In this document: one piece after another, positions 11,493-47,276 of the stretch
Layout: every line of letters begins with the position of its first letter
Numbering within the stretch: the first letter of the stretch is position 1
Source: Candidatus Woesearchaeota archaeon
GTDB lineage: Archaea > Nanobdellota > Nanobdellia > Woesearchaeales > UBA10216
Assembly (NCBI GenBank): GCA_016188155.1
Contig: JACPIH010000017.1
Span: 1 to 54,292 of the forward strand
DNA length: 54,292 bases
Reading direction: 5' to 3'
The notes under the pieces: generated by a model
Databases searched by the model: none
What the model saw: only the letters and a program-made list of their open reading frames with translations
Told to the model about the DNA's origin: nothing
Position numbers and translations under genes: made by a program

Positions 11493-11531
11493 CACTGGAC
11501 ACTGGACAAATGGGCGGCGAGGATTTATAAA
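11493..11531 (+). promoter_or_regulatory. Promoter element copy B: CACTGGACACTGGACAA-N14-TTTATAAA
   Basis: cactggacactggacaaatgggcggcgaggatttataaa, about 26 nt before ATG at 11558. Confidence 0.7.
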
Positions 11532-13107: not shown

Positions 13108-13275
13108 GTGTTTCAGCCGCTTCTGATTAGAATATAAAGTTTATGCCTTGCCTTGACAAAATCGGGAAAGTTTCGAATTTCCGCAAATAGCACTGGACAT
13201 TCCGCAAACTTTGCGCAATGGCTTCCCAGAGCCTGTAGAGCCAAAATTTGGGCATTCCAGCCTTTCTGAAAAGTA

Positions 13276-13314
13276 CACTGGACAGTGGACAAGTGCCCGG
13301 CTACAGAATATAAA
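13276..13314 (+). promoter_or_regulatory. Promoter element copy C: CACTGGACAGTGGACAA-N14-AATATAAA
   Basis: cactggacagtggacaagtgcccggctacagaatataaa. Confidence 0.7.
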
Positions 13315-13343: not shown

Positions 13344-13386
13344 AAACGCGCCGCATAGCCTAGCGCAAGAGGTTGAGATCCGGTAA
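13344..13386 (+). pseudogene. tRNA 5'-half-like fragment
   Basis: cgccgcatagcctagcgcaagaggttgagatcc resembles 5' part of the tRNA at 13419 with 75-nt offset; lacks T-arm and acceptor partner. Confidence 0.4.
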
Positions 13387-13418: not shown

Positions 13419-13518
13419 GCCGGCGTCGCATAGCTTGGTCATTGCGAGGGGTTGAGATCCTCTTGGCGAAAGCCTCGCGGGTTCAAAACCTTAGTGGGTG
13501 AAACTCCCGCCGCCGGCG
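13419..13518 (+). tRNA. tRNA-Ser(UGA) (alternative reading Leu-GAG) with 17-nt T-loop intron
   Basis: acceptor GCCGGCG/CGCCGGC, G73, D-arm GCA/TGC with GG, anticodon arm GAGGG-GTTGAGA-TCCTC, variable arm GGC-GAAA-GCC, T-stem GCGGG/CCCGC; loop becomes TTCAAAT after removing accttagtgggtgaaac. Confidence 0.75.
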
Positions 13519-44984: not shown

Positions 44985-45180
44985 TGCGGGGGACGTGATT
45001 CGAACACGTGTACCCACTAAGGGACAAGCTTTTCCGCGACCTCGCTTCCCACGTCGCCATTGCGGCGACGGGGCCCAATCGGCTGCTGCCGATTTGGGTT
45101 TGGTCGAGCTTTTTGTGAGCAGCAGCGAACAAAAAGGTCGTCTGAAGCTTGCGCATTTGACCGGGCTCTGCCACCCCCGC
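44985..45180 (-). tRNA. tRNA-Leu(CAG) with 110-nt intron (45031-45140)
   Basis: GCGGGGG/CCCCCGC acceptor, A73, anticodon loop TTCAGA|A at 37/38, class II variable arm tcccttagtgggta, T-loop TTCGAAT. Confidence 0.9.
45110..45139 (-). repeat. intron hairpin module, copy in tRNA-Leu intron
   Basis: gaccTTTTTGttcgctgctgctCACAAAAA; ~30 nt nearly identical to 47150-47180. Confidence 0.85.
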
Positions 45181-45198
45181 GCAACCCTTTTCGCAAAA

Positions 45199-45253
45199 GC
45201 CCAAGTCGTGGCAAAGCACGACTGGGCACAGTCGACTGCGGTCGACTTGTGGG
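45199..45253 (-). repeat. double-hairpin module in 5' flank of tRNA-Leu
   Basis: cacaagtcgaccgcagtcgactgtgcccagtcgtgctttgccacgacttggg; stems conserved with 47101-47149. Confidence 0.8.
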
Positions 45254-45350
45254 TTGATCCAAAAACGAACCGTGGAGACTTCTTAAATTTAACGTAAATT
45301 CAGCCAGCGTGGCTAAAATATAAAAAGAAGCCTGCATTACCTCTCTTGAA

Positions 45351-46457
45351 ATGGTAAGGGAAACAAGCGCTTCTCAAGGCAATTTTCAGGAAAAGGCTTC
45401 TATGGCTCCTATGATGCAGAGCAAGGAATCTACGATGAAGGCAATGCGCTTTCACGAGTTTGGCGGACCTGAGGTCTTGTGCTACGAGGACGTTCCCAAG
45501 CCTGTTCCCGAGTTTGGACAGGCTCTTGTGAGAGTCAAGGCTGCTTCCATCAACCGCATAGACATTTGGGCTGAGAAAGGCATTTACTACAAGCCAAGCC
45601 TTCCTCACATTCCAGGCAGTGATGCTGCAGGCGTTGTTGAGGAAGTCAATGCCGGCGATGAGTCCTTTATTGGCGGGAAAGTAATAGTCTACCCCACTTT
45701 GGCTTGCTTTCACTGCAGGCTATGCATTGAGGGCAGCCACAACCTCTGCACCAATCGCAAGACTTTAGGAGCCCATGTTAACGGCAGCTATTCAGAATAC
45801 ATCACTGTCCCTATTAAGAACCTTATGCGAATGCCTGAAGCTTTGAAGTTTGAAGAAGCCGCAGCATTGCCTTTAACATTTACAACGGCCTACCATATGC
45901 TGGTTGACAGGGCAAAGCTTCAGCCGCACGAAACTGTCCTGGTCCTGGGGGCTGGCTCTGGAGTTGGCTCTGCCGCAATCCAAATCGCTTCTTTGCTGGG
46001 TGCAAATGTTATTGCAACTTCGTCAACAGAGGAAAAGCTCAGGAAAGCGCAGAGGATTGGTGCGGACGTTGCTGTAAACTACGCTGAAGAGGGCTGGGTT
46101 GACGAGGTCATGGCAGCTACGAACAACAAAGGTGTTGACGTCGTTATTGACCACATAGGAGCGGCAACATTCGCGAAAAGCATAAAGTGCCTGGCAAAGA
46201 ACGGCAGGCTGGTGACGTGCGGGGTAACTTCAGGAAATGAGGCCACAATTGATATCAGGGAGCTGTTCAGCTCTCAGCGCTCAATCCTTGGCTCGGTGCA
46301 AGGCACCATGAAAGACTTCATAGCGGTTGCAAAGTTAGCCGCTGATGGAAAGATCAAGCCGCTGCTTGACTCTGTTTACCCGTTGAGGGATGCAAGAAAG
46401 GCCCAGGAGCGCCTGCTCTCAAGGCAGTCGTTTGGAAAGATTGTGCTGGTGCCTTGA
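45351..46457 (+). CDS. zinc-type alcohol dehydrogenase / quinone oxidoreductase (MDR family)
   Basis: GSDAAGVVEEV; CFHCRLCIEGSHNLC; VLVLGAGSGVGSAAIQIASLLGANV. Confidence 0.92.
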   Translation: MVRETSASQGNFQEKASMAPMMQSKESTMKAMRFHEFGGPEVLCYEDVPKPVPEFGQALVRVKAASINRIDIWAEKGIYYKPSLPHIPGSDAAGVVEEVNAGDESFIGGKVIVYPTLACFHCRLCIEGSHNLCTNRKTLGAHVNGSYSEYITVPIKNLMRMPEALKFEEAAALPLTFTTAYHMLVDRAKLQPHETVLVLGAGSGVGSAAIQIASLLGANVIATSSTEEKLRKAQRIGADVAVNYAEEGWVDEVMAATNNKGVDVVIDHIGAATFAKSIKCLAKNGRLVTCGVTSGNEATIDIRELFSSQRSILGSVQGTMKDFIAVAKLAADGKIKPLLDSVYPLRDARKAQERLLSRQSFGKIVLVP

Positions 46458-46492
46458 TAAAGTTTTTAAAGATAATCACATGAATTAGCTCT

Positions 46493-47035
46493 ATGCGATT
46501 TCATTTAGCATTACTGCTACTCTCCGTATTTATTTCTGCATGTACAGCAGGTAACGAGTTAAGTGATGAAGAGAGTGAACTTGATAATTGTGATTCTATA
46601 AACGATACGTTTCAAAAACAACATTGCCTTGCCAAGTTAGCAGTAGATGAAGGTGATGTCACTATTTGTGATCAGATTGAATTAGGTCGTGTAAGAGAAA
46701 ACTGTTATAATGATGTGGCAGGCAGATTAAGCGATGTAAAAATTTGTGATACAAAGTATCCGGATGAAGACATATTCCGTGTCGAATGCTACTCAAACGT
46801 AGCTGTAGGCAGCAAAGATACAACTGTGTGCGATAAAATATCAAACCCCGCTCTCGCAGCTGTCTGTTATAGCGATGTTGCAGCAGCAGAGCGCGATATA
46901 GAAATATGCAACCAAATTAAAGACGTCCAAGGGAAAGAAGAGTGCATGTCTAAATTGAATTTCTTATTGGGTAATTGCGATGCTCTCAGATTTGAAGCAT
47001 CAAGAGCCTATTGCAAGAGTGTGCATGGTAGTTAG
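46493..47035 (+). CDS. secreted lipoprotein with ~31-aa Cys repeats
   Basis: lipobox FISAC; repeated xxCYxDVAxxxxDxxICDxI blocks. Confidence 0.7.
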   Translation: MRFHLALLLLSVFISACTAGNELSDEESELDNCDSINDTFQKQHCLAKLAVDEGDVTICDQIELGRVRENCYNDVAGRLSDVKICDTKYPDEDIFRVECYSNVAVGSKDTTVCDKISNPALAAVCYSDVAAAERDIEICNQIKDVQGKEECMSKLNFLLGNCDALRFEASRAYCKSVHGS

Positions 47036-47100
47036 TGGGGCTGCTGGGATTCGAACCCAGACTACAGCGTTTTTCTTCCCTTTTCATTTTTGGTTGAGCC

Positions 47101-47149
47101 GCAAGTCGCTTTCAGCGACTGCGCACAGTCGAGCTATGCTCGACTTGTG
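47101..47149 (-). repeat. double-hairpin module in tRNA-Pro intron
   Basis: cacaagtcgagcatagctcgactgtgcgcagtcgctgaaagcgacttgc. Confidence 0.8.
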
Positions 47150-47180
47150 TTTTTGTGAGCATCAGCGAAACAAAAAGGTC
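47150..47180 (-). repeat. intron hairpin module, copy in tRNA-Pro intron
   Basis: gaccTTTTTGTttcgctgatgctcACAAAAA. Confidence 0.85.
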
Positions 47181-47276
47181 ACCCGAACGCTGTGTGTTAC
47201 CAAGTTGCACTACAGCCCCTTGAAGCCCATGGCTATTTCGGATAATATTTAAAGGTATAGAAATCCAATTTGCTTC

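Follow-up and report, generated by a model that had tools for sequence, protein, structure and literature searches.

Introns of two Woesearchaeota tRNA genes share a hairpin that is probably the tip of a dispersed palindromic element family

Introduction

Mitochondrial repetitive hairpin-forming elements (RHEs) are short double hairpins which lie in spacers and occasionally within RNA or protein genes, and whose copies are structurally divergent and vary between close relatives (PMC2800124). The Rickettsia palindromic elements (RPEs) are inserted in frame in protein genes (PMC10969869). Among Archaea, the way in which tRNA genes gain introns has been described as unknown (PMC4090602); transposition of such introns has been proposed for the Thermoproteales (Fujishima 2010, in the form in which PMC4090602 cites it), and a mobile-element model of tRNA disruption for Caldiarchaeum (PMC3293823). 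Here we analyse a 54,292-nucleotide stretch of DNA (the window) from a Candidatus Woesearchaeota archaeon (GenBank assembly GCA_016188155.1, contig JACPIH010000017.1), in which the introns of a tRNA-Leu(CAG) and a tRNA-Pro(CGG) gene share a near-identical hairpin module. We argue, with a probability of roughly three in four, that this module is the tip of a dispersed family of short palindromic DNA elements whose turnover in this Woesearchaeota genus continues. Our literature search found no account of such elements in Woesearchaeota.

Results

The tRNA-Leu(CAG) gene (window positions 44985..45180, minus strand) and the tRNA-Pro(CGG) gene (47036..47219, minus strand) each carry an anticodon-loop intron after position 37, which spans 110 nt in the former (45031..45140, minus strand; exon pairing CAAGC/GCTTG as the anticodon arm) and about 111 nt in the latter (about 47071..47181, minus strand; exon pairing CAGCG/CGCTG). 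Both introns open with [C/T]GACCTTTTTGT(T)TCGCTG[C/A]TGCTCACAAAAA, and differ there by one substitution and one indel, exactly as a preliminary description of this locus had it. A repeat search recovered this shared start as a true repeat (family D11), and a 19-nt core pattern, allowing up to three mismatches, gave 15 matches genome-wide against 1 for a reversed control pattern. The TTTTTGT/ACAAAAA hairpin previously proposed for the module is borne out, with a GC/GC inner pair in addition, and the introns do indeed encode no endonuclease. Default ARAGORN and Rfam searches reported no tRNAs in the window, missing both genes because of their introns; with introns allowed, ARAGORN placed both genes (at coordinates identical to those read by eye for tRNA-Leu), with wrong anticodons. 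Anticodons and isotypes were assigned by eye, as were the intron ends, which were set from exon pairing. The syntenic orthologue of tRNA-Leu in a related genome, G002, is intronless, and tRNA-Pro has a syntenic orthologue in genome G007. The joined exons of both genes form a normal cloverleaf, as expected of archaeal introns of the bulge-helix-bulge type. Folding gave no unambiguous bulge-helix-bulge, and the genome holds one EndA-family gene, of about 198 amino acids.

The tip folds as a T-run/A-run stem with a symmetric, conserved UC/UC internal mismatch and the GC/GC inner pair, and its loop, about four bases long, is variable; this variation and the symmetry of the mismatch led us to reject a kink-turn or a C/D box there. 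Searched at E <= 0.12 against the 1,075,335-base genome, a covariance model built for the tip (R1) places it at 21 sites, of which 11 are inside tRNA genes, in introns of the anticodon loop or the T-loop, 4 abut tRNA ends and 6 lie elsewhere. The host tRNAs are Trp, Val-CAC, Pro-TGG and Tyr-GTA (all in the T-loop), Leu-CAG, Pro-CGG, Leu-GAG, Pro-GGG, Ala-CGC, Arg-TCG and probably Glu-TTC. Three of the abutting copies begin within a few bases of a 3' end and one at a 5' end, and one of the remaining six lies about 100 nt upstream of tRNA-Gln. Across copies, 98.7% of cells are paired with 49 two-sided changes; pair counts, here and below, come from two alignments (A3 and A4) made to their own models and are thus biased to structure, and the seed alignments agree with them. 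The repeat is a dispersed palindrome strongly enriched at tRNA genes, and not an intron transposing as a unit.

Tips are held in three basal frames, designated type I (YRACC...GCTYRACCAAAAA), type II (GGACC...GCGCCCCCGGAAAA) and type III (CAGCC...GCCCTGGGGGAAAA). Three bases in the foot of type I covary as pairs (TGA/TCA, CGA/TCG, CAA/TTG, TAA/TTA, CCA/TGG and GAA/TTC), and one and the same tip, TTTTGTTCGCAGCGGCTCACAAAA, is found in type I (L023 and L093) and type III frames (L020 and L096). In the tRNA-Leu intron, a type I frame CGACC...GCTCGACC (45102..45140, minus strand), supported by frame covariation and an R1 match at 45105-45140, encloses the tip cassette TTTTTGTTCGCTGCTGCTCACAAAAA (45110..45135, minus strand), which is the module first noticed; the corresponding cassette of the tRNA-Pro intron is TTTTTGTTTCGCTGATGCTCACAAAAA (47150..47176, minus strand), and both were recovered by repeat, pattern and R1 model searches.

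The third component is a double hairpin (DH) of about 50 nt, for which a second covariance model (R2) finds around 50 places in the genome. Counting each place once, 746 of 759 cells are paired, and compensatory changes are present. DHs are often found directly behind a hairpin's A-run. One example is the tRNA-Pro intron, where the R2 match (47100..47149, minus strand) has the tip's A-run on one side and the GCTCAACC of the type I frame on the other, and so splits the module; the type I consensus unsplit by a DH is found in another genome of the genus (G004, L091). A further R2 match lies within the tRNA-Leu intron (45048..45098, minus strand). DHs also occupy loops, and are nested in type I hairpins and inside another DH. 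At L232, a DH interrupts the loop of a TTCTTTGG hairpin, the undisturbed form of which is present in the same genome (L233); the six copies of this TTCTTTGG subfamily, with its tail CCAAGAAATCCACA, comprise two tRNA introns (Gln and Gly) and four non-tRNA places. Further DHs lie within long open frames which Pfam assigns to a D-aminoacyl-tRNA deacylase, an FtsY/SRP54-type GTPase, an Elp3-like radical SAM protein, an OGG-type glycosylase, ACPS and others.

T-runs and A-runs flank the stems and several copies directly follow a gene or tRNA, as would be the case if the palindromes were ordinary transcription terminators or had arisen by chance in AT-rich spacers. This idea is scarcely tenable given the long sequence identity among copies, their common tails, nested insertions and restriction to the genus, and the copies that lie in tRNA introns and open protein frames refute it as the main explanation. 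The preliminary description had further proposed that the module at many unrelated intergenic sites would signify a generic rather than intron-associated repeat. This is partly the case, with the tip in 3' trailers, a 5' leader and spacers, and the DH at some 50 sites that extend to open protein frames.

For comparison among genomes, the groundwater genome analysed here (G000, 88.7% complete) was read via searches and selected stretches, and all compared genomes are metagenome-assembled genomes (MAGs) that are 67 to 92% complete. Within the genus, 6 of 8 genomes have R1 tip matches, against almost none of 51 genomes from outside it; R2 matches extend to all 8 genus genomes and to three further genera of the family. 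One genome from another genus of the family (G010) has 37 DH matches and no tip-module match, and the DH is therefore older or wider than the tip. A pattern search of contigs returned chiefly Woesearchaeota MAGs, with a handful of isolates contributing most of the matches; single scattered matches in Haladaptatus, Thaumarchaeota, Diapherotrites, Micrarchaeota and Aenigmatarchaeota records may be due to chance.

Orthologous tRNA loci, located through the adjacent RNase J and GlyRS genes, differ even between G000 and its sister and closest relative G007, which diverge by about 7% in one neighbouring protein. The tRNA-Leu(CAG) orthologue carries a type III hairpin and a D-loop insert in G007, a type I hairpin and the D-loop insert in G005, and no intron in G002; tRNA-Pro(CGG) of G007 has inserts in the D-loop, anticodon loop (a different hairpin) and T-loop, the latter two carrying DHs. 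Between G000 and G007, tips or entire introns are replaced in Tyr, Ala, Arg, Leu(TAA), Pro and others with exons nearly identical; at L026 the entire tip is replaced, both arms having changed together. Other hairpins are little changed (L023, L025, C12:22562 and C12:9586). The clearest empty site is in the dtdA-type gene, where a 48-nt DH in phase 0 is missing from G007 between flanks that are about 90% identical, and no target-site duplication is seen at this site. A DH at C29:7145 is likewise cleanly missing from G007, other sites are absent, and three are shared. Immediately upstream of tRNA-Leu, a second DH (R2 match at 45200..45251, minus strand) in the 5' arm of a hairpin is missing from the corresponding hairpin in G007, and a different DH stands there in G005.

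Under the model put forward for Thermoproteales, reverse splicing or recombination would carry whole introns, or their RNA, from one tRNA gene to another, and the module would be a piece of a transposed intron. The presence of 11 of about 21 tip copies within tRNA genes, the common type III boundaries of T-loop introns (TTCRAA|CAGCCC) and the identical frame with which the Leu and Pro introns open would all fit. Such transposition is nonetheless unlikely here: similar sequence is not confined to tRNA introns, as hairpins also lie just outside tRNA genes, in trailers and in tRNA-free spacers, and DHs in open protein frames; tips and frames assort independently; and in tRNA-Tyr and at L192 the tip was exchanged while frame and splice site stayed. 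Of the earlier suggestion that the module spread by intron transposition, what survives is its movement among unrelated tRNA introns; the copies in trailers, leader and spacers tell against the intron as the transposing unit. The same loci bear on the notion of a conserved functional RNA hairpin (a binding site, processing signal or guide) under selection in pre-tRNAs and other transcripts, which would agree with the strong compensatory change, the conserved UC/UC mismatch and the copies adjoining tRNA ends. However, in orthologous tRNAs of close relatives the module is missing or another hairpin takes its place, two genomes of the genus are without it, its orientation is opposite to that of the tRNA in L003/L016, and no Rfam family matched in the window at the gathering score. 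We consider such a role very unlikely as an explanation, and the conserved function raised in the preliminary description is, in its pure form, disfavoured.

Several further observations concern tRNA genes and candidate RNAs. L016/L003 (G000:C36, about 23.2 kb, minus strand) is a tRNA-Trp(CCA) with an anticodon-loop intron bearing C/D-box-like motifs, and a T-loop intron bearing a tip and a DH. At L030 (G000:C24:1720-1749), a type I hairpin lies within a possible small RNA gene having a C/D-like ending. In G005, a tRNA-Leu(CAG) without its 3' part (L179), beside the start of an alcohol-dehydrogenase-type gene, may be a fragment, a split gene or an assembly break. Within the window, a tRNA-Ser(UGA)-like gene at 13419-13518 (plus strand), which default ARAGORN misses, has a T-loop insert of about 17 nt and no hairpin element; just upstream (about 13348-13384, plus strand) is a partial repeat of its 5' half, possibly a tRNA fragment. 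A repeat, GTCCAGTGTCCAGTG, lies near TATA-like boxes at 79-117, 11493-11531 and about 13270-13300, and also precedes, as a leader, the hairpin elements at L008, L012, L036, L232 and L233.

Discussion

The distribution of copies, their paired and covarying structure, their nesting, and their presence, absence or tip replacement at orthologous sites are observed directly, and we read them together as the traces of a palindromic DNA family. Its separable parts would be a basal frame, an exchangeable tip and the DH of about 50 nt, the last inserting in spacers, genes, tRNA introns and other hairpins. The anticodon-loop and T-loop introns, together with tRNA ends, may be favoured and tolerant landing sites, inserts there presumably being of low cost because predicted splicing, or end processing, removes them. 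Copying would take place at the DNA level, whether by hairpin-templated repair, by gene conversion or by elements transposing in trans. Point mutation poorly explains the replacement of a whole tip, as at L026, which leads us to infer that hairpins copy or convert one another or else transpose in trans. More speculatively, and at somewhat less than even odds, the family might itself be the reason why tRNA introns at the D, anticodon and T loops are rapidly gained, lost and remodelled, with tips replaced as units, perhaps by copying guided by hairpin structure and independent of a classical transposase.

Several points weigh against a family of mobile palindromes. No mobilising enzyme was found: Y1_Tnp (PF01797) is absent from G000 and present in only 2 of the 8 genus genomes (G002 and G004), all of these genomes being incomplete. 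A one-gene tree resolves only the pairing of G000 with G007 and so gives no direction to gain or loss. The strong pair covariation would also fit selection on RNA structure, and single sites could be misassembled in MAGs. Further, counts of tRNA matches per genome fail to separate the tip-less genomes, in which fewer introns would be expected, from the others, and tRNA introns in this genus may not depend on the tip.

The value of these loci lies in corresponding tRNA genes that carry different introns and swapped hairpins in sister genomes, and are intronless in a further relative, because filled and empty sites can then be compared directly. The family may accordingly reveal how tRNA genes of Archaea acquire introns and remodel them, and if palindromes do drive intron turnover, this would be a mechanism of intron gain absent from the papers we found. 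That tRNA finders miss such genes should also serve as a warning.

Among known systems, the mitochondrial RHEs, of which the double-hairpin elements of Allomyces are an example, resemble the present family as dispersed short double hairpins of conserved structure and divergent sequence which vary between relatives. The likeness is of kind only, with no homology claimed, and here the elements occupy an archaeal chromosome, concentrate at tRNA introns and ends, and have a separable frame, tip and DH. RPEs share the insertion within open protein frames (here those of dtdA, FtsY, Elp3, OGG and ACPS type, with the dtdA site empty in G007), although they measure about 150 bp, whereas the elements described here are DHs of about 50 nt or hairpins of about 40 nt that invade tRNA introns; this comparison is by description rather than by sequence. 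Repetitive extragenic palindromes (REPs) and bacterial interspersed mosaic elements (BIMEs), with their REP-associated tyrosine transposases (RAYT, Y1), are similar as paired, inverted, imperfect hairpins present in many copies in spacers, but differ in that our copies also lie in tRNA introns and open protein frames and G000 has no Y1_Tnp; by this PF01797 search, a REP/RAYT origin is unsupported for G000. Miniature inverted-repeat transposable elements are likewise short, non-coding and bounded by inverted repeats, with presence or absence at orthologous sites, yet the cleanest empty site here, in dtdA, is without target-site duplication. Thermoproteales intron transposition and the Caldiarchaeum model share an outcome, namely intron gain within a population, again with no homology claimed; what is shared here, unlike in those cases, is a dispersed palindrome with copies outside tRNA genes as well. 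The mitochondrial double hairpins and RPEs are nearest in kind, and the Thermoproteales and Caldiarchaeum cases nearest in outcome. The hairpin elements of mitochondria and Rickettsia find a counterpart of their kind in an archaeal chromosome.
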